Assembly: GCA_017635465.1 (NCBI GenBank)
Contig: JAGBLL010000114.1
Location: 1-35,710, forward strand
Reading direction: 5' to 3'
DNA length: 35,710 bases
DNA from: Bacilli bacterium
GTDB lineage: Bacteria; Bacillota_I; Bacilli_A; RFN20; CAG-826
Part shown: positions 1,694 to 13,908 of the stretch, piece after piece
How positions within the stretch are numbered: the first letter of the stretch is position 1
Layout: each line of letters starts with the position of its first letter
Notes under the pieces: model-generated
The model's input: only the letters and a program-made list of their open reading frames with translations
Told to the model about the DNA's origin: nothing
Database searches by the model: none
Made by a program: the position numbers and the translations under genes

Positions 1694-2881
1694 ATGTCTA
1701 AGGTTATCGTTCACATAGATCTCAATGCTTTCTTTGCGAGATGCGAGGAAATCAAAGACCCATCTTTAGAAAATAAACCAGTGGCCATTGGTCATGATGG
1801 TAGAGGGGGCATTGTTTCAACTTGCTCATATGCGGCGCGTAAATATGGTGTTTCTAGTGCCATGCCAATGTTTAAGGCTAAGCAACTTTGCCCAAAGCTT
1901 ATTATCATTCCTGGGGACTATCATTTCTATTCTTCAATGAGTCATAAGTTTTTTAACTTTATTAGAAGATACACAAAACTCGTCGAACCAGCATCCGTGG
2001 ATGAATGTTTCGCGGACTTCACTGAAGTCATTAAAAAAGAAAAAGACGCTGTTTCTTTCTTTAGAAAGTTACAAGATGATTTATTTAAAGAAACAGGTTT
2101 AAAATGCTCCATTGGTGTTTCCACAACTAGATTCTTAGCCAAGATGGCAAGCGATTATCAAAAACCAATGGGTTTAACGATTATTCATAAAAGAGATATT
2201 GATAAAATCTTATTCCCTTTAAAAGTGGAATCAATGTTCGGCGTGGGTAAAAAGACCGCGCCTAGACTTAAAAGCATTGGCATTAAAACTATTGGAGATT
2301 TATATAACAAATTAGAAAAAGAAGACGATGATATTAAAAATATTCTTGGTAAGTCTTACTACACTCTAAAAGAGTGGCTAGAAGGTAAAGGCTCTGATGA
2401 GATTGAACTAGAGAAGTGGGACCCTAAATCAATTGGTAATTCAGAAACTCTTCCATATGACACAGATAACGCTGTTGAAATTAAAAAACATTTCATGTCA
2501 TTAGCCAAAGAAGTCTCAGAAAGAGCCAAAAGAGAAGATAAACTCGGTCACACAATTCAAATCGTGGTCAAAGACCATACTTTTAAATCGTTTAATAAAT
2601 CGATTACTTTTTCTAATCCGACGAATGAATGGCAAGCAATCTATGATCACGCCTGTAATCTCTATGATAAATATTTCACAAAGATTGTCCTTAGACTCGT
2701 CGGTATTACTTTACAAAATCTCATCGATTATCAAGATATCGCTGTGCAAATGAGCTTATTCGACTACACAAAGCACGAAGAAGAAAGCAAAACTAAATTA
2801 CTCATCAATGAGTTGAATCGTTCCTTAAAGAAGCCATTATTAAAAAGAGCAAGTGAGGTGAAGAAGAATGGAAATCGTTGA
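1694..2881 (+). CDS. dinB: Y-family DNA polymerase (DNA polymerase IV type)
   Basis: An error-prone translesion DNA polymerase of 395 residues. The N-terminal palm motif IVHIDLNAFFARCEE carries the first metal aspartate. SVDECFADFTE near residue 102 gives the Asp-Glu pair, and CSIGVSTTRFLAKMASDYQKP is the Y-family signature block. A helix-hairpin-helix thumb follows (FGVGKKTAPRLKSIGIKTIG), then the little-finger domain. Residues 352-356 read QMSLF, a good match to the sliding-clamp binding pentapeptide expected at a DinB C-terminus. The start has no ribosome binding site and lies six bases after a -10 box. The 3' end overlaps xerD by 14 bases. UmuC- or ImuB-like activity cannot be excluded. 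Confidence 0.9.
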   Translation: MSKVIVHIDLNAFFARCEEIKDPSLENKPVAIGHDGRGGIVSTCSYAARKYGVSSAMPMFKAKQLCPKLIIIPGDYHFYSSMSHKFFNFIRRYTKLVEPASVDECFADFTEVIKKEKDAVSFFRKLQDDLFKETGLKCSIGVSTTRFLAKMASDYQKPMGLTIIHKRDIDKILFPLKVESMFGVGKKTAPRLKSIGIKTIGDLYNKLEKEDDDIKNILGKSYYTLKEWLEGKGSDEIELEKWDPKSIGNSETLPYDTDNAVEIKKHFMSLAKEVSERAKREDKLGHTIQIVVKDHTFKSFNKSITFSNPTNEWQAIYDHACNLYDKYFTKIVLRLVGITLQNLIDYQDIAVQMSLFDYTKHEEESKTKLLINELNRSLKKPLLKRASEVKKNGNR

Positions 2882-3743
2882 CGCTATTGACATGTTTCAT
2901 CAATACATTCTCGTAGAGAAAGGTCTTTCTCCTCAAACATGGATATCTTATTTAGAAGACTTACAAGCTTTCTTTGATTATTTTAGTGATAAGAAAGACA
3001 CTAGTGATTTATTAGAAACAGACTTATATGAATTCTTAAAATATGAATTATCTTTAGGTAAATCTGTTTCAACCGCGTTAAGAAGACTATCTTCCACACG
3101 TGGTTTTTATCTCTTTTTGAAGAAAGATGGCTATTATACAGGCAACATTCCTGATATTGAAACACCTAAAAAGCCTAAACATTTACCAAACTGTTTAAGC
3201 GAAGAAGAAATTGATCGCTTATTAGAAGTACCAGATTTAGAATCTCCTTCCGGTATCAGAGATCGGGCAATGCTTGAAACAATGTATGCCTCAGGATTAA
3301 GAGTGAGTGAACTTCTTAATCTTAAATGTAGACAAATAAACTTAAATAAGTGTATCATTACTGTCTTTGGCAAAGGCGCTAAAGAGAGGAAAGTTCCCAT
3401 CGCTGAATATGCCGTTGAATATATTAATAAATATATAAAAGAGGTCAGAAACAAAAGCGAACATAAGAAAAGCGAATATCTATTTTTGAATAGAAGTGGG
3501 AAACCTATTAGTCGTGTATATTTCTTTAAACAAGTGAGAAAATATGCTGAACTAGCGGGTATTGATATGGTCATTTCCCCTCATACCTTAAGGCATAGCT
3601 TTGCGACACATTTATTAAATCGAGGTGCGCAGTTAAGAATGGTGCAGGGTATGTTAGGACACACAAATATCGCCACCACGCAAATATATACGCATGTTTC
3701 TAGCGAGAAACTTAAATCAGATTATGATAAAATTATGAAGTGA
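2868..3743 (+). CDS. xerD: Site-specific tyrosine recombinase XerD-like
   Basis: A 291-residue tyrosine recombinase. The N-terminal SAM-like core-binding domain (about 1-100) is followed by the catalytic domain with the full active-site set: R145 (SGLRVSELLNLK), K169 (FGKGAKERKVPI), H239 and R242 (HTLRHSFATH), H265 (LGHTNIATT) and the nucleophile Y274 (IYTHV). Length and sequence fit chromosomal XerC/XerD rather than a phage integrase. With a partner it resolves chromosome dimers at dif; a dif-like site lies 2 kb downstream. GAGGTGAAGAAG before the ATG is its ribosome binding site, inside dinB. It may be the XerC of the pair. The second recombinase is not in this window. Confidence 0.9.
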   Translation: MEIVDAIDMFHQYILVEKGLSPQTWISYLEDLQAFFDYFSDKKDTSDLLETDLYEFLKYELSLGKSVSTALRRLSSTRGFYLFLKKDGYYTGNIPDIETPKKPKHLPNCLSEEEIDRLLEVPDLESPSGIRDRAMLETMYASGLRVSELLNLKCRQINLNKCIITVFGKGAKERKVPIAEYAVEYINKYIKEVRNKSEHKKSEYLFLNRSGKPISRVYFFKQVRKYAELAGIDMVISPHTLRHSFATHLLNRGAQLRMVQGMLGHTNIATTQIYTHVSSEKLKSDYDKIMK

Positions 3744-3753
3744 GGTCAAAAAA

Positions 3754-4956
3754 ATGAGTAATTATAAGTACAAAAGAATATTTGTTATCGTTGCCGATTC
3801 TATGGGTAGTGGTTATATGAAAGACGCTGATAGATTTGGCGATAAAGGTTCAAACACTTTATTACATATCGGTGAAAAGATGCCAAATGGATTAAATGTC
3901 CCAACTCTTAATAAATTAGGACTAGGGGATTTAGATCCAATCAAAGGCACTTCTAAAGTTAACCATCCTCAATCATATATTTGTAAAGCTAACGAAGTTA
4001 GTAATGGCAAAGACACGATGACTGGTCACTGGGAAATCATGGGTATTAACACCCAAGTTCCTTTTAAAACATTTACCGATACTGGCTTTCCAAAAGAATT
4101 AATTGATGAATTAGAAGCTAAAACCGGTCATAAAGTTATCGGTAACAAGGCCGCGAGTGGCACAGAAATACTCGTAGAGCTTGGAGAAGAGCAATGCAGG
4201 GATAATTCCTTAATCGTCTATACTTCAAGCGATAGCGTCCTTCAAATCGCCGCTCATGAAGAAGTGACAGGTCTTGAAGAATTATATCGATGCTGTGAAA
4301 TTGCTAGAGAAATCTGTATGAAACCAGAATGGATGGTGGGAAGAGTCATTGCTAGACCATATGTTGGTACAGATAAAACAAACTTTAAGCGTGTTACTGG
4401 TCATAGACATGACTTAGCCTTAAAGCCAAGCGCTCCAACAGTGATGAATATCTTACAAGATAACGGCTTCATGACAAGCTGTGTTGGTAAGATTGGTGAT
4501 ATCTTTGATATGTATGGCGTAGTAAAGACACAAAAAACCGTCTCAAATGAAGATGGCATGGATAAAACCATTGAAGAAGCTAAATCTCATGATTTCACAG
4601 GTTTATGCTTTGTCAACTTAGTGGAATTCGATAGTGAATATGGCCATAGAAGAAATCCAATTGGCTATGGTGAATGCATTGAACGCTTCGATAAGCGTGT
4701 AAATGAACTCATTCCATATCTTAAAGATGATGACCTTTTAATCATTACCGCGGATCATGGTAATGACCCAACTTGGACTGGAACAGACCACACAAGAGAA
4801 AAAATACCTCTTATTATTTATAACAAAAAACTTGATGGTGGAACCTATTTAAGTGAAAGAACAAGCTTTGGCGATATTGGCGCAACAATTTTACATAACT
4901 TTAATATCAAAAAGCCTGATTACATCTTAGGAACTCCAATCAAAGAATTGTTCTAA
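3754..4956 (+). CDS. deoB: Phosphopentomutase
   Basis: DeoB interconverts ribose or deoxyribose 1-phosphate and 5-phosphate and links nucleoside breakdown to the pentose phosphate pathway. It belongs to the alkaline-phosphatase superfamily: a metal Asp lies in FVIVADSMGSGYMKDAD at the N-terminus, the phospho-acceptor Thr in NGKDTMTGHWEIMG, and metal ligands in ITADHGNDPTWTGTDHTREK near the C-terminus. The 400-residue length is typical. It starts 10 bases after xerD behind TGAGGTC and is probably in the dinB-xerD operon. An ATTGTT/AACAAT repeat at its 3' end lacks a U-tract, so termination here is uncertain. Confidence 0.96.
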   Translation: MSNYKYKRIFVIVADSMGSGYMKDADRFGDKGSNTLLHIGEKMPNGLNVPTLNKLGLGDLDPIKGTSKVNHPQSYICKANEVSNGKDTMTGHWEIMGINTQVPFKTFTDTGFPKELIDELEAKTGHKVIGNKAASGTEILVELGEEQCRDNSLIVYTSSDSVLQIAAHEEVTGLEELYRCCEIAREICMKPEWMVGRVIARPYVGTDKTNFKRVTGHRHDLALKPSAPTVMNILQDNGFMTSCVGKIGDIFDMYGVVKTQKTVSNEDGMDKTIEEAKSHDFTGLCFVNLVEFDSEYGHRRNPIGYGECIERFDKRVNELIPYLKDDDLLIITADHGNDPTWTGTDHTREKIPLIIYNKKLDGGTYLSERTSFGDIGATILHNFNIKKPDYILGTPIKELF

Positions 4957-4980
4957 AAAACAATAATATTCAAAAAAACC

Positions 4981-5057
4981 ATGTGCATCTAAGGTGCATA
5001 TGACTTTAGATTGCCTCCAAACGGTACTAGAGTTTTTAACCGTTCGGAAAGGAGGCA
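4981..5057 (+). promoter_or_regulatory. Structured leader that sequesters the ribosome binding site of the PemK-like gene
   Basis: TGCCTCC (5012-5018) is complementary to GGAGGCA (5051-5057), which contains the ribosome binding site of the next gene. An inner arm AACGGT (5020-5025) pairs with ACCGTT (5039-5044). Upstream, ATGTGCA (4981-4987) can pair with TGCATAT (4995-5001), or alternatively GCATCTAA (4985-4992) with TTAGAT-TGC (5006-5014). The second option excludes the first and takes bases 5012-5014 from the hairpin that hides the ribosome binding site. This is a plausible switch, but no known riboswitch family was recognised. The same inverted repeat could be an operator. Confidence 0.55.
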
Positions 5058-5061
5058 GAAT

Positions 5062-5673
5062 ATGAAATCAAAATCTGAACAAAATTATATTGTTACGAAA
5101 GTAGCAATAACTTGTAATGCTGATTTAATCTTAGGCGAAGAAGACGCTGAAAAGATTAAAAAAGCATTATCCGTGGATGATGTAGACGAAAGACTATATT
5201 TTTTCCACAAGTATTTTGACGTACGTTGTGACGTCAGAGCAGGCGATGTCTATTTGACACAATTCCAAAATAGCATCGGCACAGAGCTAAGCGGCGATCA
5301 TTTTGCTGTTGCAATAATCAATTCAACAAAGAAAAACCGCAACGTTATGATCATTCCGCTTACGTCCGCAAAAGAAGGCAAGCATAAGAATCCGAGGAAC
5401 AGTGTCTTTCTCGGAACGATTCCTGGCATCAACAATGGCAAAGAATCAATCGCGTTGATTAACCAAGTTCAAAGCGTTGACAAAAAGCGTTTCCTTAAAC
5501 TTGATGAGATGTATGAGATATTGCGCTTAGCAACAGAGAATTCATACGAAAGAAACAGCCTAATCTGTGAAATCAACAAAGTTCATTATAGGTTAACACG
5601 CAAACAATACAATGAGCTTTGCAAATGTTGCCAGGAATACATGCAGCACAACGGACTATATTCGGAAAAATAA
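5062..5673 (+). CDS. Solitary PemK/MazF-like protein (type II toxin fold)
   Basis: A 203-residue protein whose middle matches the MazF/PemK endoribonuclease fold: AGDVYLTQFQNSIGTELSGD (about 60-79), VMIIPLTS (95-102) and ALINQVQSVDKKRFLK (131-146). Compared with short MazF toxins it has an extra N-terminal domain of about 58 residues and a helical C-terminal tail. The RP step usual after the GxE turn is HF here (H80), so RNase activity is uncertain, while the Thr of PLTS is kept. The ATG at 5062 has a strong AAAGGAGG; an upstream TTG in frame lies inside the leader hairpin. No antitoxin gene is visible on either side. Codon use (CGC, CGT, GCA, TTG) differs from its neighbours, which suggests an acquired gene. 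Confidence 0.7.
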   Translation: MKSKSEQNYIVTKVAITCNADLILGEEDAEKIKKALSVDDVDERLYFFHKYFDVRCDVRAGDVYLTQFQNSIGTELSGDHFAVAIINSTKKNRNVMIIPLTSAKEGKHKNPRNSVFLGTIPGINNGKESIALINQVQSVDKKRFLKLDEMYEILRLATENSYERNSLICEINKVHYRLTRKQYNELCKCCQEYMQHNGLYSEK

Positions 5674-5718
5674 AAATTAGTAGATTTCTAGTAGTTTAGA
5701 AATCCACACATTTTCCGA
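5662..5718 (+). other. RNA hairpin spanning the stop codon of the PemK-like gene
   Basis: TCGGAAAA (5662-5669) pairs with TTTTCCGA (5711-5718), and inside it GATTTCTA (5683-5690) pairs perfectly with TAGAAATC (5697-5704) over a six-base loop. The stop codon (5671-5673) lies within this structure. No U-tract follows directly, so it is not a simple terminator; a second hairpin after it is. Confidence 0.5.
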
Positions 5719-5721
5719 GTA

Positions 5722-5780
5722 AAAAGACTGGTAAAATTAGTGAATAATCAAAAGCACTAACAAATCAGTCTTTTATTTTA
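5722..5780 (+). terminator. Terminator after the PemK-like gene (long-armed hairpin)
   Basis: AAAAGACTG (5722-5730) pairs with CAGTCTTTT (5766-5774); an inner TTAGTG (5737-5742) pairs with CACTAA (5755-5760). The right arm continues into TTTTATTTTA. It closes the + strand gene block just before the candidate dif site. Confidence 0.65.
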
Positions 5781-5811
5781 CTTTAGTAATATCTTAATTT
5801 TTAATATGTAA

Positions 5812-5839
5812 AGTTAACATAATGACAATTATGCGAAGT
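5812..5839 (-). other. dif: Candidate dif site (XerC/XerD chromosome-dimer resolution site)
   Basis: Read on +, the left arm is AGTTAACATAA, the six-base centre TGACAA and the right arm TTATGCGAAGT. Read on -, this is a XerC-type arm ACTTCGCATAA and a XerD-type arm TTATGTTAACT. From memory of the Bacillus subtilis dif, the XerD arm matches 10 of 11 positions and the XerC arm 8 of 11; the match to the E. coli dif arms is similar. The 11-6-11 layout is exact. It lies between facing terminators at the place where gene orientation switches from + to -, as expected at a replication terminus, and 2 kb from xerD. Confidence 0.75.
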
Positions 5840-5918
5840 TCGTGTATTTGTGAAATTTGGTGTGGATTGTGTGGAAAAGTCCACTTATACACATCTGACT
5901 CCACTCTGGTCTATTCAT
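5829..5918 (-). CDS. Possible 29-residue small protein overlapping dif
   Basis: ATG at 5918 is preceded by TGAGGAG with 8 bases between, a textbook ribosome binding site. The frame (MNRPEWSQMCISG then LFHTIHTKFHKYTNFA) stops with TAA inside the candidate dif site. A possible promoter lies upstream on - (TATGAT at 5970-5975 with a TG extension). No family was recognised. The frame runs over the DnaA-box-like repeats, so it may be accidental. Confidence 0.22.
   Translation of the reverse strand: MNRPEWSQMCISGLFHTIHTKFHKYTNFA
5861..5893. promoter_or_regulatory. Cluster of DnaA-box-like 9-mers beside dif
   Basis: TTATACACA (5885-5893) fits the TTATNCACA DnaA box on +. TGTGGAAAA (5870-5878) and TGTGGATTG (5861-5869) are reverse-strand boxes with one and two mismatches to TGTGGATAA. 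The last two are directly adjacent. GTGGA-AAAG-TCCAC (5871-5884) also forms a short palindrome, and TTTGGTG/CACCAAA flank the whole block. Binding by DnaA is inference. Confidence 0.35.
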
Positions 5919-5996
5919 CACCAAAACTCCTCAAATTTTAATTGCCTATTTTTTGGCTTTTTTCTTAAAATCATAACAAATGTGTGTTAATGACAG

Positions 5997-6027
5997 CAAT
6001 AAAAAATGGTCAGTTAATACTGGCCAT
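5997..6027 (-). terminator. Terminator of the yqeG-yqeH-yhbY-nadD operon
   Basis: On -, ATGGCCAGT pairs with ACTGACCAT (one G-U pair) around ATTA and runs into TTTTTTATTG. In + coordinates the arms are 6019-6027 and 6006-6014. It lies 28 bases after the stop of the fused NadD-YqeK gene and faces the terminator at 5722-5780. The stretch 5840-5996 between them holds only the small elements listed separately. Confidence 0.85.
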
Positions 6028-6054
6028 AATTCATTCAATTTTGAGTGGTAATTT

Positions 6055-7134
6055 TTACTTATTTAGATAGTATTTGAAGCAGTCTGCGGTGAATCTATTG
6101 TCCACCATTTTGTCCTTGCTAATGAGGAAATCTCTATTGGCATTAAGCACTGTGATGAAGCCTTTTTCGAAGTCGTCATACATGGCTTTTATTAGGCTAC
6201 TAGAGTCGTATGGACGGGTTGGTTCAATCTTATCAGAGACGAAAACGAGCTTTTCAAGCCACCCCATTTTCTTTCTCCCTGTTGTGTGATACTTAATCGC
6301 ATCTAATATTTCATCATCATGGACTCCAAAAGTGTCTCTTGCCACCATCGCTCCTAAAAATTGATGGTAAGCATAAGCACCGATATCAAGATATCCAGGA
6401 TAAAATTCTTTCATTAATCTTAAAGATTCTTCATCGTTAATCCCTTTAGCGATGTCATGAAGAATACCAGCAACATAAGCCTTAGAGAAATTTAATCCAT
6501 GATGCTTAGCGAGTTCATAAGCGGTATGGGCAACAGATTTAGAATGTCTGAAGCGGCTTTCTTTAAGCATTGGTTTGATTTTCTTAATGAAATATAATTC
6601 GTTATCTTCAATATATTTAATGACGTCTTCTTGTAAATATGCACTTCTAAGTTCTCTAATGTCACTAGATGAAACATCCATTATCGGACCCGAAACCGCG
6701 ATCATATGGTATTTATCCACGTTGACTTCATTAAGCTCGTATTTTGGCCTTTCATAATAGATTATTTGGGTATTTTTAGCGATTTCTTCTGGCTTTGCCC
6801 ATTCATGGAAGGCATTAACTTGGTCTTGGCCAATTAAAAAATACAATTTATCGTTTGGATATTTCTTTTTGAAATAGGCCACTGTTTGATAACTTCTTGG
6901 TTGTTCTTCTTGATCAAGTTCAAAAGTATCGACACTGAAATTGGGATAATCTTTAATCGCTAACTTCACCATCGCTAATTTGTGGTCTTGATTAATAGAT
7001 GAACTTTTCCAAATAGCGACTTTCGCGGGTACGAAAATGACTTCACCACCATATTTTTTCTGCGCCATTAAGGCCATATTAATATGTCCAAGGTGAATTG
7101 GATCAAAACCACCACCGAAAATAATCTTATTCAT
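6055..7134 (-). CDS. nadD: Fused nicotinate-nucleotide adenylyltransferase (NadD) and YqeK-type HD hydrolase
   Basis: A 359-residue two-domain protein. Residues 1 to about 185 are NadD, which adenylylates nicotinate mononucleotide for NAD synthesis: IIFGGGFDPIHLGHINMA is the nucleotidyltransferase GxFDPxHxGH motif and DVSSSDIRELRSA the ISSTxIR-like motif. From about 190 an HD-domain hydrolase begins: FRHSKSVAHTAYELAKHHGL and AGILHDIAKG carry its metal-binding His and HD pair. This part matches YqeK, a diadenosine tetraphosphatase. In Bacillus these are two genes; the fusion is known from mycoplasmas. It overlaps yhbY by one base. Confidence 0.92.
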   Translation of the reverse strand: MNKIIFGGGFDPIHLGHINMALMAQKKYGGEVIFVPAKVAIWKSSSINQDHKLAMVKLAIKDYPNFSVDTFELDQEEQPRSYQTVAYFKKKYPNDKLYFLIGQDQVNAFHEWAKPEEIAKNTQIIYYERPKYELNEVNVDKYHMIAVSGPIMDVSSSDIRELRSAYLQEDVIKYIEDNELYFIKKIKPMLKESRFRHSKSVAHTAYELAKHHGLNFSKAYVAGILHDIAKGINDEESLRLMKEFYPGYLDIGAYAYHQFLGAMVARDTFGVHDDEILDAIKYHTTGRKKMGWLEKLVFVSDKIEPTRPYDSSSLIKAMYDDFEKGFITVLNANRDFLISKDKMVDNRFTADCFKYYLNK

Positions 7135-7421
7135 TAAATCTTAATCTTTGGATTCTCTTTATTCCTACGGAATAATATAATAACTCTACCCATCACATGG
7201 ACGAGTTCAGCGTTTAATTTATTAGAAATATCAATCGCTACTTCCATCACTGGTAAGGTACAACCTTTCATGACATCAATTTTAATTAATTCATGAGCGG
7301 TAAGCGCTTTATCGAGCATGGATAAAAGAGTTTCTGAAATATCATTTTTACCAATTTGGTAACGGATAGTTAATGTTGAGGCTAACGCTTTTAAATCGCG
7401 TTTTTGTTTTGGCGTTAACAT
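7134..7421 (-). CDS. yhbY: CRM-domain RNA-binding protein (YhbY/YqeI family)
   Basis: A 95-residue single-domain protein. LTPKQKRDLKALASTLTIRY, then QIGKNDISETLLSMLDKAL and ELIKIDVMKGC are the family's conserved blocks; the usual GKxG turn is read here as QIGKND. CRM-domain proteins of this type bind pre-ribosomal particles and are linked to large-subunit assembly. It lies between yqeH and nadD, the same neighbours as in Bacillus, so a role in ribosome maturation is the best inference. Confidence 0.88.
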   Translation of the reverse strand: MLTPKQKRDLKALASTLTIRYQIGKNDISETLLSMLDKALTAHELIKIDVMKGCTLPVMEVAIDISNKLNAELVHVMGRVIILFRRNKENPKIKI

Positions 7422-7422
7422 A

Positions 7423-8574
7423 TTATCTAATCTTCGCTAAGCTTTCTTTTAAGGCGATGCCTTTTGGTAAACGGACACGAATTACTTGGCCTTGAGCGAT
7501 AAATGATAACCAGCCTAAGCCTTCAATAGAGATATCGTGCCATTTTTTATCGTTTTCCATGGTGTATTCAAACATATCATAATCTAAGAAACTAATTAAT
7601 CTTTCAGAAACTGGTCTCACACTACGGCGAATATTGTTTTCATTGATGAAATCATCAAGTTTCTTGTTTAGGACTTTCTTTGTTTCCACTGCTTCTGCAC
7701 AATAGAAACGATAATATGTGGCTTTGCCTTTGATAATTTCAAAAGCGGCTAATGAACCAACAACAAGAGCTTCACCAGCGTTTAATAAACGATTGGCGAT
7801 TTTGACATCTTTCTTAGGAGTGATTAGTTTCACAACTTCTTTTTCTAATCTTCCTTGTGCGGATGTTGTTTGAGAAATACCTGGTAATTCATAGAAAAAT
7901 GAAGAACGAGATAATGGAATTTCTAAAACACTGACGCTTGTGCCTGGATAAGTAACTGTCTTAATTTGACGGTTGGTCTTATTTTCATAGCCTTTCATCG
8001 CTTTGTTGATAAGTGATGTCTTACCAGAAGTAAGATTACCAATCATATAAACGTCATGGCCTTTTCTAGCCACGTTCATGGCGTTAATTAATTCTTTAGG
8101 GTCAAACTTATTAGAATTAGCGGTACTTGTACTAACTAGTCTAATGGTATTTGGCTTAATGTCATAAGCTTGGAATCTTTCTCTTAAGTAATTGATTAAA
8201 GAGTCATCTTTAACACTGGATGGGAATAAGTCCCTCTTAGTACCTACGACTGTTAAACTTAGTTTCTTAACTTTATCAGCAATTTCTTTATTTAATGTGC
8301 CGTTAAATGAGAACAAATCAACGACCCAGATGATGTATGCGTCTGTAGCAAAAGCATCATCAAGTATTTTTAATACTTCTTGATCAACTTTTTGTTCAAG
8401 TTCACTATTGTTAAATGCTTTCATTGTTTCAAAGCACTTATCGCAATAGATAATTTGAATTGGTGTTGCGCGGTGCAATGATTCAGGAAGGATGTATCCT
8501 TTTTCATTTTCGTCTTCACATTGTAAGATCGCACCACAGTGATAGCAACGAAGCACTCTACTTAGTTTGCCCAT
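7423..8574 (-). CDS. yqeH: Ribosome biogenesis GTPase YqeH (circularly permuted)
   Basis: A 383-residue circularly permuted GTPase needed for 30S subunit assembly. An N-terminal zinc finger (LRCYHCGAILQ then IYCDKCFE) comes first. The G-motifs follow in permuted order: G4 as GTKRDLF near 112-118, G1 as GNLTSGKTSLINK near 178, and G3 as YELPGIS near 229. The Asp of the usual DTPG G3 motif is Glu here and G1 has TSGKT where NVGKS is common, both mild departures. A C-terminal domain follows. The 3' end of yqeG overlaps its start by 17 bases. In Bacillus aroE lies next to yqeH; it is absent here. Confidence 0.92.
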   Translation of the reverse strand: MGKLSRVLRCYHCGAILQCEDENEKGYILPESLHRATPIQIIYCDKCFETMKAFNNSELEQKVDQEVLKILDDAFATDAYIIWVVDLFSFNGTLNKEIADKVKKLSLTVVGTKRDLFPSSVKDDSLINYLRERFQAYDIKPNTIRLVSTSTANSNKFDPKELINAMNVARKGHDVYMIGNLTSGKTSLINKAMKGYENKTNRQIKTVTYPGTSVSVLEIPLSRSSFFYELPGISQTTSAQGRLEKEVVKLITPKKDVKIANRLLNAGEALVVGSLAAFEIIKGKATYYRFYCAEAVETKKVLNKKLDDFINENNIRRSVRPVSERLISFLDYDMFEYTMENDKKWHDISIEGLGWLSFIAQGQVIRVRLPKGIALKESLAKIR

Positions 8575-9094
8575 ATTTTGTTCTCCAGTCCGGCAATTTG
8601 CCTTTTTTCTTTAGATGTTTTCTGATCGGTCTATCAAATAGACGATTGATGTGTGTTGTCCATTGATCTTCTTTGACAATCTTTTCCGTTAATATGACGC
8701 GTATATGTGCGCCTTTAGCGGCTAGAACGTCTGTAATCATTTGATCCCCGACGAGCATTGTTTCTTCTGGAGTGTAATTATTTTCTTTGAGAAACTTCTT
8801 AATCTTTCCAGAAAATGGTTTTCTTGCGGAATTAATGCAAGGTAAGCCGATGTTACTAGCATATGTCTTCACGCGCTTACCGCGATTATTAGAAACAATA
8901 ACGACTTTAAGCCCTGTCTCTAATAAAGTTTTCACAAGATCGACCGCTCTTTGGGTTGGGACATTTAAGCGATAACTGTCCAATGTATTATCTAAATCCA
9001 CTAGAAGTAGATTTACACCCTGACCTTTATAGAAATCAGCGGGGATTTCATATATCGATGTAGCGTGAGCAAACGGGATGAATTTCTTGAACAT
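8558..9094 (-). CDS. yqeG: HAD-superfamily phosphatase YqeG
   Basis: A 178-residue HAD hydrolase of the YqeG (subfamily IIIA) type. LLLVDLDNTLDSYRL carries the DxDxT nucleophile motif, VVIVSNNRG is motif II, and MLVGDQMITDVLAAKGAH the metal-binding GDQxxTD motif. The physiological substrate of the family is not settled. It is the first gene of the yqeG-yqeH-yhbY-nadD operon. The ATG has no clear ribosome binding site; AAGGT lies 16 bases upstream, too far for a normal one, and a TATTAT box lies 14 bases before the ATG, so the leader may be very short. Confidence 0.88.
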   Translation of the reverse strand: MFKKFIPFAHATSIYEIPADFYKGQGVNLLLVDLDNTLDSYRLNVPTQRAVDLVKTLLETGLKVVIVSNNRGKRVKTYASNIGLPCINSARKPFSGKIKKFLKENNYTPEETMLVGDQMITDVLAAKGAHIRVILTEKIVKEDQWTTHINRLFDRPIRKHLKKKGKLPDWRTKYGQTK

Positions 9095-9133
9095 ATTTAT
9101 CTAAATAAATAATACCTTAAAAGTGGTCTAATA

Positions 9134-9160
9134 TGTGAGAAATAATTTATCTTTCTCACA
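9134..9160. promoter_or_regulatory. Perfect 9-base inverted repeat upstream of yqeG
   Basis: TGTGAGAAA (9134-9142) and TTTCTCACA (9152-9160) are exact inverted copies with a nine-base A+T spacer. The element lies 40 bases before the yqeG start, in the only gap of this operon, and is not followed by a U-tract on either strand. It may be an operator or a leader hairpin; the binding protein is unknown. Confidence 0.5.
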
Positions 9161-9183
9161 AACTAATCATTATTAAGATATAG

Positions 9184-9209
9184 AAAAAGGCACTCATTTC
9201 GAATGCCTT
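9184..9209 (-). terminator. Terminator of parE-parC
   Basis: On -, AAGGCATTC pairs with GAGTGCCTT (one G-U pair) around GAAAT and runs into TTTTTC. It lies 75 bases after the parC stop. The 75 bases between hold nothing recognisable. Confidence 0.8.
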
Positions 9210-9283
9210 ATACATTTTTAAGTTATGATATATAACTATGTTATATGTTTTACTAATTAATTACTAATAACTTACTAGTAGAA

Positions 9284-11920
9284 TTAATCATCCAAATCAT
9301 CAAAAATGGATATTTGTTCAAAGCCTTCTTTGGTTTTTTCTTCTGTAACTGGGTCTTTTTCTTCGCTTTCTTCACTATCATTAAGATCTTCCGCTGATAG
9401 TTCTTCAGGGTCTTTTTCTTTAACCACGATTGGATGAGAAACAGTCTTTTTATTAATGATTTCAATCTCTGTATCGATGACATTATCAATTTCCGTTTTA
9501 GCAGGAATCTCGATATTCTTTTTCGCATATTTTGCTAAATCTGAGAGATAGAATTCGTTTAAATCAAAGGTGAAATATTCATTCGTATTTAAGAATAGAT
9601 TTATTTTTAATAAATCTGCTTTAGTGTTGAGCTTAAAGGCGCTGACAACACGATGGATATCGCTCTTAAAGCATGGCATCACTTGGGTCACTCTACCTAA
9701 ACGTTGTGTGAGATTGACGTGAGCGTTATCAAAGATACGATAATGGCCTTTATCGGTAAATAAGATGACTTTATTCTTTTCTTCTTCATCAAAAGCGATT
9801 AACGCTACTGCGTTATTCTTGCCTAAACTACCGATTGATTTCACACCACCAGCTTTGCTAGAAAGGACTGTTAATTCGTTTTCATTGAAGTATGAAACGT
9901 TACCATTACTTGTTAAAACAAGTAAATTGCTGTTGCCAGTGAGTATTTCTACACTGACAACTTCATCCCCGTTTAATAAGCGCATATTACGCGTTGGGCG
10001 GGAGCGTTTTCCTTGTTCTATATTATTTAATGGCATACGTTTGATTTGGCCAAATTTGGTCAAAATGCCTAAATAAATGTCATCTCTAAAGTCACTAACG
10101 GCGATACCTTTAATGATCTTTTCACCAGAATTAAGAGTGGAGAAAGCATTCAAATGGGTGCCTTCATCTTTCCATCTATTTTCTGTCATTTTATGAACAG
10201 GAACGCAGATGTAATTGCCCTGATTTGTGAAACAAATCAAATAGTCAGTTGTATTAACTAAACCTTGAGCGACAAGTTCATCACCGTCTTTAAGGCCAGG
10301 AAGAGGATTATCGCCACTACTACGATACGATTTAATTGTGGATCTTTTTAAATAACCATCACGAGTTAAGGCAATCATCACATCATCTTTAGCGATTAAT
10401 TCACGCTTATCAATTGGGGCGATTTCTTCTTTTTCTTGAATAACTGTACGTCTATCATCCCCATATTTATCAGCGATAGCCTTAAGTTCTCTCACTAAAA
10501 CTCTATTGAGTTTGTTTTCATCTTCTAAGATACCTTTTAAGATTTCGATATCTTTTAAAAGTTGGACTTTTTCGTTTTCTAAAGTGACCTCATCAGTGTG
10601 AGATAACTTATATAATGGCATGGTAACGATTGCTTCAGCTTGTTCGTTTGAGAAGCCATATCTGTTCATTAAGTTAACTTTAGAATCCGCTTTATCTTTA
10701 CTGCGTTTGATGATTTCTACGACTTCATTGATGTTTAAAGAAGCTTGGATTAAACCTTCAACGATGTGTAATCTTGCTTGATATCTATCTAGGTCAAATC
10801 TAGATTTTCTTGTTACAACATCCACTTGGTGAGCAATATATGCATCAACATAAGTAAGTAAATTTAAAGTCTTAGGACGACCATTAACAATCGCCACCAT
10901 ATTAGTGCTGTAACTTGAAACTAAACCAGTTTTGTTATTTAAGTATTGTAAAAGTAATTCGACTTTTGCGTCTTTTTTACAATCAATAACGATTCTGATG
11001 CCTTTCCAGTCAGATTCATCACGCACTTCTAAAAGGCCATCTACGGCTTTAGAATGGATGATTTTATCGATTTCAAACACTAATTGGTTCTTTTGCGTTT
11101 TGTATGGGATTTCAGTAATAACGATTTGTTGATTGTCCTTATTTTGGACAATTTCTTCTTTAGAGGCGATCTCAATACGGCCTCTACCAGTTAAATAAAT
11201 GCTCTTTAAGCCTTCACTTTCATAGATGATACCACCACCTGGGAAGTCAGGACCTAAAACGAACTGCATTAAATCTTCTACTGTTGCAGTTTTATGGCCA
11301 ATGCGGTAAATGACCGCATCGATGATTTCTCTAAGGTTATGAGGTGGAATTTCTGTGGCCATACCAACAGCGATACCTTCTGTACCATTAGCGAATAAGT
11401 TAGGAAATCTAGCAGGTAAAATTGTTGGTTCGAATTCTGTGTCATCGAAGTTTAACTGCATGTCAACAGTCTTTTTATCAATTTCTCTGACTAATTCATT
11501 AGAAATTTCACTTAATCTTGATTCGGTATAACGATAAGCCGCTGGTGAATCGCCATCGATAGAACCGTTATTTCCTTGGAAGTCAATTAATGGATATCTG
11601 ATCTTCCAATCTTGGCTCATTCTCGCTAAAGCTTCATAGATTGATATATCACCATGTGGGTGGAAAGTACCCATAACCGCACCAACGGTATGAGCGCATT
11701 TTCTTGTTGGCTTATTAAAGACGTTGTTGTTCTTAAACATCGTGAAAATGATACGTCTTTGAACTGGTTTTAAGCCATCTCTTACATCAGGAATAGCTCT
11801 ATCTTGAATGACGTATTTAGCATATGTTGCGTAGCGGTCACCCATCACTTCTTCCATCGATTGAATGGAGATATTTTCAACGTAATTTTCTTCGACTAAG
11901 TCAATCTTTTTTCTAGCCAT
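9284..11920 (-). CDS. parC: DNA topoisomerase IV subunit A
   Basis: The cutting subunit of topoisomerase IV, which decatenates daughter chromosomes. The breakage-reunion domain has the QRDR motif HPHGDISIYEALARM (residues 87-101) and the catalytic Tyr in AAYRYTESRL. GNNGSIDGD is the ParC form (GyrA has GNFGS), the GyrA box QRRGGKG is absent, and the gene pairs with parE beside plsY, so this is ParC rather than GyrA. A six-bladed beta-pinwheel domain (about 500-820) follows, then an acidic disordered tail ending in QISIFDDLDD. At 878 residues it is longer than the usual 800 because of this tail. Residue 92 is Ile where Ser is usual. It starts three bases after parE. Confidence 0.93.
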   Translation of the reverse strand: MARKKIDLVEENYVENISIQSMEEVMGDRYATYAKYVIQDRAIPDVRDGLKPVQRRIIFTMFKNNNVFNKPTRKCAHTVGAVMGTFHPHGDISIYEALARMSQDWKIRYPLIDFQGNNGSIDGDSPAAYRYTESRLSEISNELVREIDKKTVDMQLNFDDTEFEPTILPARFPNLFANGTEGIAVGMATEIPPHNLREIIDAVIYRIGHKTATVEDLMQFVLGPDFPGGGIIYESEGLKSIYLTGRGRIEIASKEEIVQNKDNQQIVITEIPYKTQKNQLVFEIDKIIHSKAVDGLLEVRDESDWKGIRIVIDCKKDAKVELLLQYLNNKTGLVSSYSTNMVAIVNGRPKTLNLLTYVDAYIAHQVDVVTRKSRFDLDRYQARLHIVEGLIQASLNINEVVEIIKRSKDKADSKVNLMNRYGFSNEQAEAIVTMPLYKLSHTDEVTLENEKVQLLKDIEILKGILEDENKLNRVLVRELKAIADKYGDDRRTVIQEKEEIAPIDKRELIAKDDVMIALTRDGYLKRSTIKSYRSSGDNPLPGLKDGDELVAQGLVNTTDYLICFTNQGNYICVPVHKMTENRWKDEGTHLNAFSTLNSGEKIIKGIAVSDFRDDIYLGILTKFGQIKRMPLNNIEQGKRSRPTRNMRLLNGDEVVSVEILTGNSNLLVLTSNGNVSYFNENELTVLSSKAGGVKSIGSLGKNNAVALIAFDEEEKNKVILFTDKGHYRIFDNAHVNLTQRLGRVTQVMPCFKSDIHRVVSAFKLNTKADLLKINLFLNTNEYFTFDLNEFYLSDLAKYAKKNIEIPAKTEIDNVIDTEIEIINKKTVSHPIVVKEKDPEELSAEDLNDSEESEEKDPVTEEKTKEGFEQISIFDDLDD

Positions 11921-11923
11921 AAA

Positions 11924-13867
11924 TTACTTGACCTCCTTGATGAAAGTATCAATCTTATTAAAGTCGACATTTTCTTCAACCCACGCTCTTCTGATACCAG
12001 CATCACGTCCCATTAAGACATTGACACGCTTTTCAGCAAGAATTGGATCATCAATCTCAACTTGTAACAATAATCTAGTTCTTGGATCCATTGTTGTTTC
12101 TTTTAATTGGATAGCGTCCATTTCACCAAGACCTTTATAACGGGAGACTTTATAGCCACCACCGACAATTTTCTTTGCTTTTTCTAATCCTTCGTCATCC
12201 CAAGCGTATTCTTGAACGACTTTTTTGCCATCTTCCTTATAAACACGATATAAAGGAGGAACAGCAATAAAGATGTGACCAGATGTGATTAATTGACGCA
12301 TATAATGGTAGAAAAACGTTAATAATAACGTTTGGATATGCGCACCATCGGTATCAGCATCGGTCATGATGATGATTTTGCCGTATTTTATATCTTCAAT
12401 ATCGAAGCTTTGTCCAAAACCCGCACCAATGGTATTAATAATGGTTGCGATTTCTTCATTATGAACTAATCTATCGATAGAAATTGAGTCTGTATTTAAT
12501 GGTTTACCTCTAAGAGGTAAGATGGCTTGATGTAATCTATCTCTGCCTTTCTTAGCGGTACCACCAGCGGAATCACCTTCAACGATAAAAAGCTCGTTTT
12601 TAGCGTAGTCTTTAGACTGCGCTGGGGTCAATTTGTCACTTAAAATGATCTCTTGTTTAGGTTTTTTGTTACTTCTAGCCTCTTCTTTTGCTTTTCTAGC
12701 GGCTAATCTAGCGGTTTGAGAAGCAACACATTTATTGATCAAATTAATAGCAAACTCTTTGTTTTCGAGTAAGTAATAAGTAAACTTATTAAAGATAAAA
12801 TTGGAGACGACAGAAACCGCTTGTGGAGTGCCTAATTTACCTTTTGTTTGGCCTTCAAATTCCAGTAAAGTTTCTGGGATTTTTAAAGAAACAACCGCGG
12901 TTAAACCTTCTCTAATATCACTACCCTCAAGCTTTTTACCTTTGGCAAGTTTATAAGTTTCCGCGAAATCATTAACGGCTTTAGTAATACCCGCTCTAAA
13001 ACCAGTTTCATGGGTACCACCATCTCTTGTTCTTACGTTATTAACGTAAGAGAAGATTGTTTCGTTATAGTCTTCGTTACAATATTGAAGAGCGATTTCA
13101 ATATCAATTTGTGTTTCACTATCGGTATCAGAGAAGCTGATGACATCGCTTAACGGATTCTTATTGCTGTTGACGTTATTGATGTACTCCACTAAGCCGT
13201 TTTCATATAAAAAGTTTTGACTTTGTCCTGTTTTTTCATCATTTAAGACAAATTCAACGCCTTTCATTAAGAAGGCACTTTCTTGTAAGTGAGATGAGAT
13301 GATATCCCATTTAAATTCCACTGTAGAGAAGATAGTTGCATCTGGCTTAAATCTCACATATGTACCATGTTTCTTACATGTACCGACGATTTCTAAAGGC
13401 GTGACAAGTTGACCACCATTTTCGAATTTCAAATGGTAGATATTACCGTTTTGATAGACATTGATGTCTATCCATTCGCTTAAAGCGTTGGTGACAGAAG
13501 CACCAACACCATGTAAACCAGCAGCGGATTTATAAACAGCATTATTAAATTTACCACCAGCGTGAAGCTCAGTGAAAACAACTTCGACCGCAGGTCGACC
13601 TGTCTCTTTGTTAATACCGACTGGAATGCCACGACCTTCATCTAAAACAGATATTGAACCATCTTTATGCATGGTAACAATGATCTTTTTACCATATCCT
13701 GATAAAGCTTCATCGACTGCGTTATCAACTACTTCCCACACTAAATGATGTAAACCAGCACTATTTGTGGAGCCGATATACATAGCAGGTCTTTTTCTGA
13801 CGCCTTCGAGGCCCTTCATGACATGAATATCATCGGCCGTATATGTTGTTTTTTTAATATCTGACAC
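11924..13867 (-). CDS. parE: DNA topoisomerase IV subunit B
   Basis: The ATPase subunit of topoisomerase IV. The GHKL domain has VVDNAVDEALSGYG, DEGRGIPVGINKETG and AGLHGVGASVTNALSEW; the transducer and TOPRIM domains follow, with LFIVEGDSAGGTAKKGRDR, PLRGKPLN and MTDADTDGAHIQ. The GTG at 13867 is chosen as start because AAAGGG lies eight bases upstream, giving 647 residues. A TTG at 13885 is also in frame and lies only six bases after a TATAAT (13892-13897), so a longer leaderless form is possible. parC follows after three bases. The divergent plsY matches the Bacillus and Staphylococcus arrangement. Confidence 0.93.
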   Translation of the reverse strand: MSDIKKTTYTADDIHVMKGLEGVRKRPAMYIGSTNSAGLHHLVWEVVDNAVDEALSGYGKKIIVTMHKDGSISVLDEGRGIPVGINKETGRPAVEVVFTELHAGGKFNNAVYKSAAGLHGVGASVTNALSEWIDINVYQNGNIYHLKFENGGQLVTPLEIVGTCKKHGTYVRFKPDATIFSTVEFKWDIISSHLQESAFLMKGVEFVLNDEKTGQSQNFLYENGLVEYINNVNSNKNPLSDVISFSDTDSETQIDIEIALQYCNEDYNETIFSYVNNVRTRDGGTHETGFRAGITKAVNDFAETYKLAKGKKLEGSDIREGLTAVVSLKIPETLLEFEGQTKGKLGTPQAVSVVSNFIFNKFTYYLLENKEFAINLINKCVASQTARLAARKAKEEARSNKKPKQEIILSDKLTPAQSKDYAKNELFIVEGDSAGGTAKKGRDRLHQAILPLRGKPLNTDSISIDRLVHNEEIATIINTIGAGFGQSFDIEDIKYGKIIIMTDADTDGAHIQTLLLTFFYHYMRQLITSGHIFIAVPPLYRVYKEDGKKVVQEYAWDDEGLEKAKKIVGGGYKVSRYKGLGEMDAIQLKETTMDPRTRLLLQVEIDDPILAEKRVNVLMGRDAGIRRAWVEENVDFNKIDTFIKEVK

Positions 13868-13908
13868 TATATTTACCCTTTGCAAGACTTAATTATATAC
13901 AAATTAAG

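Follow-up and report, generated by a model that had tools for sequence, protein, structure and literature searches.

Chromosomal dif is usually viewed as a bare 28-bp target controlled by FtsK alone. The 35,710-nucleotide stretch of DNA analysed here (the window) holds a dif-like 28-mer in a gap between two gene blocks. This raises two questions: does the 28-mer mark the replication terminus of this bacterium, and does it stand alone?

The 28-mer and its chromosomal setting

An earlier note on this DNA had proposed a dif candidate with XerC-type and XerD-type arms in an 11-6-11 arrangement. We confirm this candidate by its sequence, uniqueness, and conservation. The plus-strand 28-mer at 5812-5839 is AGTTAACATAATGACAATTATGCGAAGT, and the minus strand, from 5839 to 5812, reads ACTTCGCATAA-TTGTCA-TTATGTTAACT. 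The site comprises the following features:

5812..5839, minus strand: dif, 28 bp, 11-6-11 (sequence read, uniqueness, relatives, shuffles)
5829-5839, minus strand: XerC arm of dif, ACTTCGCATAA
5823-5828, minus strand: centre of dif, TTGTCA
5812-5822, minus strand: XerD arm of dif, TTATGTTAACT

With up to 3 mismatches allowed, there is one copy of the 28-mer in the window and one in the whole genome (1.83 Mb, 137 contigs), as the earlier note had anticipated. At the same threshold, 100 dinucleotide shuffles of the window gave zero matches. The conservation of the arms also holds: the arm pattern (≤3 mismatches) has a single match each in 48 of 59 relatives, with a reversed-pattern control matching in 1 genome, and in 17 compared family loci the site lies between the same genes. 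The exact 28-mer is found in six database contigs, which are titled uncultured Erysipelotrichaceae, Bacillales, or Bacilli bacterium. No dif match was found in three genomes of the same genus (G003, with 95% completeness, G009, and G010); either loss of the site or a gap in the assembly could account for this.

We read cumulative GC skew in the window, whose own genome is in 137 contigs, in the first 400 kb of a relative, G026, and in a nearly closed relative, G034 (1.48 Mb main contig, read whole except for 72 kb of N). The skew maximum of G034 lies at 298,591, within 34 bp of its dif (298,530-298,557). Its skew minimum adjoins dnaA at ~1,023,700, and the separation of dif and dnaA amounts to 49% of the chromosome. 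Given that origin and terminus, ~75% of long open reading frames (ORFs) are on the leading strand. The maximum of G026 (184,333) and its dif (184,434-184,461) are 101 bp apart, while in the window the skew is highest at 5879, 40 bp past dif. The suggestion that this is a likely replication terminus is thus supported by a skew switch at dif in both relatives and, locally, in the window. Polar octamers that could guide FtsK showed weak skews in G034, and the B. subtilis SRS octamer was not polar there.

The GC-skew switch is also accounted for by a change in gene orientation at dif. As previously described, all genes to the left (xseA, dinB, xerD, deoB, and a MazF-like ORF) are on the plus strand and nearly all genes to the right are on the minus strand, plsY and gcpE being the exceptions. 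The reported proximity of xerD, 2 kb from dif, is likewise correct (its end is 2.07 kb away), and the two facing terminators claimed for the gap correspond to terminator-like hairpins that flank dif. Neither of these hairpins was listed by a simple terminator scan. The main features of the neighbourhood are as follows:

2868..3743, plus strand: xerD (Pfam Phage_integrase; best NCBIfam model XerD TIGR02225, 321 bits, just below the cut-off of 329.6)
~5717..5780, plus strand: terminator-like hairpin after the left gene block (fold z -4.9 and alignment; this genus only)
~6005..6030, minus strand: terminator-like hairpin of the nadD/yqeK operon (fold z -4.6)
9284..11920, minus strand: parC, topoisomerase IV subunit A (TIGR01061 best, 811.6 bits, just below the cut-off of 813.25)
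11924..13885, minus strand: parE, topoisomerase IV subunit B (TIGR01058 best, 887 bits, just below the cut-off of 900)

The order xseA-dinB-xerD-deoB-dif-nadD/yqeK-yhbY-yqeH-yqeG-parC-parE is kept in the 17 family loci, as far as these loci extend. In contrast to the dif sites of E. coli and B. subtilis, the site here shares conserved synteny with xerD and parCE. The terminus itself holds a cluster of genes for completing the chromosome (window 2868-13885): xerD, dif, and parC-parE lie within 11 kb of each other and remain linked throughout the family. Elsewhere, xerD is usually nearer the origin (PMC3025954).

Both recombinases are present. A xerC candidate adjoins topA on another contig of the same genome (C32), where the best model is XerC, slightly below its equivalog cut-off, and XerD and XerC were found in most of the related genomes. 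Absence of FtsK was considered when a first motif search returned none. This idea was dropped because tblastn with an FtsK core query gave a clear FtsK/SpoIIIE-like motor in G034 and G026.

The site resembles the chromosomal dif of E. coli and B. subtilis in its 28-bp length, its 11-6-11 layout, and its single copy at the terminus, with genes for both XerC and XerD in the genome and an FtsK/SpoIIIE motor in two relatives. The dif itself belongs to a known kind, and what is new about it is its annotation only. XerCD resolves chromosome dimers upon activation by FtsK/SpoIIIE, and we apply this established knowledge to the 28-mer, which shows every dif feature tested. The 11-bp arms would be the binding sites of XerC and XerD, which an FtsK/SpoIIIE-type translocase would activate at the septum to convert chromosome dimers to monomers. 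We regard it as highly probable that 5812-5839 is, jointly, the chromosomal dif at the replication terminus and a site with a functional flank.

Exact dif arms, with no array of the kind described below, also occur in three IMG/VR contigs (L037:1621-1648, L038:8854-8881, and L039:6486-6513), which are possibly XerCD-integrating phages or host fragments. Several contigs of metagenome-assembled genomes start or stop at dif or a few hundred bases away (G049:C8:1-28, G047:C3:19541-19568, L019, and G008:C27:254-281). These contig ends could stem from elements integrated at dif within the population, or from fragmentation by chance.

Repeats and DnaA-box-like sequences beside dif

The earlier reading of the locus was right about dif at the terminus and missed the conserved repeats and DnaA-box-like sequences that flank it. 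In three families of the order (f1, f3, and f5), direct repeats with the consensus (C/T)TACTAATTATCTACTAAT (66 loci) follow an 11-bp period on the XerD side of dif. The array has two to four ACTA cores at intervals of exactly 11 bp. It is usually preceded by a DnaA-box-like TT(A/T)TCCACA, ~85-105 bp beyond the XerD arm. In the window, the flanks of dif hold:

5676..5696, minus strand: phased repeat AACTACTAGAAATCTACTAAT on the XerD side, a pair of CTACTA units at an 11-bp interval; it lies ~115 bp past the XerD arm
5701..5718, no strand assigned: degenerate remnant of the XerD-side DnaA-box-like sequence (AATCCACA and ATTTTCCGA, both on the plus strand; from alignment)
5861..5869, minus strand: second tandem box CAATCCACA, offset -30 (TTTTCCACA in other species of the genus)
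5870..5878, minus strand: XerC-side DnaA-box-like sequence TTTTCCACA, offset -39 from the XerC arm
5885..5893, plus strand: third DnaA-box-like sequence TTATACACA

The repeat at 5676..5696 is the sole CTACTR-N5-CTACTA match in the window. It is single in its own genome, and 13 genomes within the genus carry it exactly or with ≤2 mismatches. Across 16 genomes of the genus, the repeat (≤2 mismatches) occurs 14 times. Thirteen of these occurrences are about 140 bp from dif, one for each same-genus genome in which dif was found. The XerD-side box position holds the canonical TT[AT]TCCACA in most relatives outside the genus and is often degenerate within it. The tandem pair of boxes in this genus belongs to the XerC side (offsets -39 and -30). 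We also find that an extended box, AGTTTTCCACA, is common to the dif flank and the oriC of the lineage. The CTACTA repeats were not found in the oriC loci of the lineage, including that of G034.

These elements recur far above expectation in 28 loci that were picked by dif alone. Counting from the start of the XerC arm, and taking expectations from the remainder of the loci, ACTA-N7-ACTA repeats are present at +95 to +175 in 21 of the 28 loci (0.18 expected). TT[AT]TCCACA is present in the same interval, on the XerC-to-XerD strand, in 15 (0.06 expected). Shuffles give repeats at a rate of 0.2%. By family, the repeats are found in 14 of 16 f1 loci, the window included (one of the two exceptions is a one-base variant), in 4 of 4 f3 loci, and in 3 of 4 f5 loci, as well as in all 11 further dif-alone loci of the genus. 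They are absent from 11 of 11 dif loci from families f2, f4, f6, f7, and f8.

At the level of the order, a dif core with a box at a fixed distance is found in 115 of 279 genomes (reversed-pattern control, 3). Outside the order, the same pattern gave 6 matches, all without a XerD arm, among 253 genomes of the class, which is close to the control level (4 genomes), and a spread beyond the order was rejected. Viral contigs gave 87 dif-plus-box matches, only 7 of them with a loose dif (≤5 mismatches) and none with the array. In the G034 genome, the pair of box and repeats occurs once, at dif. A few f1 and f5 genomes have no array (G031 and G045), and two f3 species (L012 and L013; genomes G036 and G048) have the array with no DnaA-box-like sequence. 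Thus, the box is not indispensable. In both of these f3 genomes, ACT cores recur every 11 bp over an extended stretch, with about eight units in G036, as counted by eye.

The repeats are kept next to any of three neighbours: a MazF-like ORF, an ABC permease, or deoB. Since the neighbour varies and the repeats persist, they are not part of one gene. In two other f3 species (G080 and G081), the array lies inside terminator-like inverted repeats with a T run; part of the conservation could therefore be transcriptional. A fast-evolving MazF/PemK-like protein adjoins the array (window 5011-5673) in many genera of the family, with the gene in the same place in G034, G027, G022, G028, G030, G019, G120, G121, G127, and G130. 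Other genera of the family have an ABC transporter permease instead. In many f1 genera, the interval from dif to the box also holds a weaker common motif, approximately TAAAAA followed by GATTTAATCG, at ~10-45 bp beyond the XerD arm.

The offsets of both elements cluster in 10-11 bp steps relative to dif. Measured from the XerC arm, boxes start at 100-104, 112-118, 121-124, and 132, and TACTA positions are concentrated around 143, 154, and 164. The spacing from dif to the array may thus change by insertions and deletions of full helical turns. This statistic, drawn from 67 loci that were mostly picked by the box pattern, is suggestive only, because shared ancestry is ignored and many of the loci are box-selected.

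A literature search returned no report of DnaA boxes or accessory sequences at a chromosomal dif. As far as the literature searched shows, the flanking array has not been previously described.

Possible roles of the flanking array

Judged by sequence, dif in the clade of f1, f3, and f5 is not a bare 28-mer: it carries a phased array, usually with a DnaA-box-like sequence. This order-specific combination sets it apart from the dif sites of E. coli and B. subtilis. From the same sequence comparisons, we infer each binding event and any role of the array. A protein would multimerise on the array, DnaA probably occupying the boxes, and the multimer would lie on one helix face beside the synapse. 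Such a complex would shape or time XerCD synapsis, or would stop replication forks beside dif. DnaA is a likely partner at the array.

We favour an accessory dif complex because the array keeps a constant distance, a constant side, and an 11-bp period, and is in step with dif. An accessory role in recombination specifically is plausible, at a little short of an even chance. The plasmid sites cer and psi have accessory sequences on the XerC side of the core. The array resembles them in lying ~100-150 bp beside the core with spacing in helical turns, as expected for an accessory nucleoprotein complex, and differs from them in being chromosomal and on the XerD side. A simple motif search of G034 (72 kb of which is N) found no PepA or ArgR signature. 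The most specific form of the accessory reading is a compound dif, in which DnaA and an undescribed protein on the phased box-plus-repeat array would license XerCD recombination or fork termination. In that full form, we consider it rather doubtful.

Several other explanations bear on the same observations. The array could belong to a separate fork trap, where a polar terminator protein that is unrelated to Tus, and perhaps RTP-like, binds the ACTA repeats and holds forks by dif. A skew maximum 34-101 bp from dif in two relatives is sharper than reported bacterial averages and would fit such a trap, as would an array that is one-sided and unique. The Ter sites of B. subtilis are likewise ACTA-rich, asymmetric, and near dif. 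They contain ACTAA and TACYAAAT elements (PMC3317982). However, a single one-sided array could block one fork at most, and the gene-orientation change also explains the skew switch. Ter sites consist of overlapping A and B half-sites rather than one regular 11-bp period, and the Ter consensus KMACTAANWNNWCTATGTACYAAATNTTC matches here at ≥7 mismatches, no better than in shuffles. RTP itself (PF02334) was above the cut-off in 0 of 59 relatives, with the B. subtilis control detected, and we reject it as the array binder on the absence of the family and of Ter matches. Overall, a fork trap of this kind is unlikely. It is somewhat less probable still that the locus controls DnaA in the manner of datA or DARS of E. 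coli, titrating or resetting DnaA when the terminus is copied and adjoining dif because both belong there. Like datA and DARS, it has non-coding DnaA-box-like sites distant from oriC, TT[AT]TCCACA shares the extended context of oriC boxes, and up to three box-like sequences stand beside dif in the genus. Yet there is usually only one box, which is fixed to dif, two f3 species have the repeats without it, and a helical step with dif would be unnecessary for DnaA control.

Conservation of terminators and the 3' ends of convergent genes could in principle account for the array, and the gap does hold terminator-like hairpins, which in G080 and G081 enclose the repeats. We consider this explanation very improbable, since the repeats survive a change of neighbour, and since genera share them, together with their 11-bp period and distance to dif, but do not share the hairpins. 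That the 28-mer is no chromosomal dif at all, being instead the attachment site of a mobile element (pdif or an integrated dif-using element), is scarcely credible. Exact arms in three viral contigs speak for this reading, but the 28-mer is single copy and lies at the skew switch, in a position and gene order that are shared across the family.

Two further candidates were rejected. TACTA/AACTA, which is found in the array, is the preferred motif of B. subtilis Rok, a protein that works with DnaA (PMC6212790). The winged-helix family of Rok (PF23159) was above the cut-off in 0 of 59 relatives, and Rok was dropped as the array binder. In the basal unwinding system of oriC, too, CTACTA follows a DnaA box on the same strand. 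In contrast to that system, the spacer here is ~18-30 bp (the peak in the literature is 10-13), the pair of CTACTA units has an 11-bp spacing, off the 3-base register of DnaA-trios, and the element is at the terminus. An oriC-like unwinding element was therefore rejected, given also that no such repeats occur in the oriC loci.

A clade with an array at its dif allows one to test for the action of other proteins there, and for a DnaA-mediated link between the initiation and the termination of replication. If the compound-site reading is true, the replication initiator would be directly involved in finishing the chromosome. The array and dif also provide a terminus marker for a large gut lineage that is uncultured and has few closed genomes.
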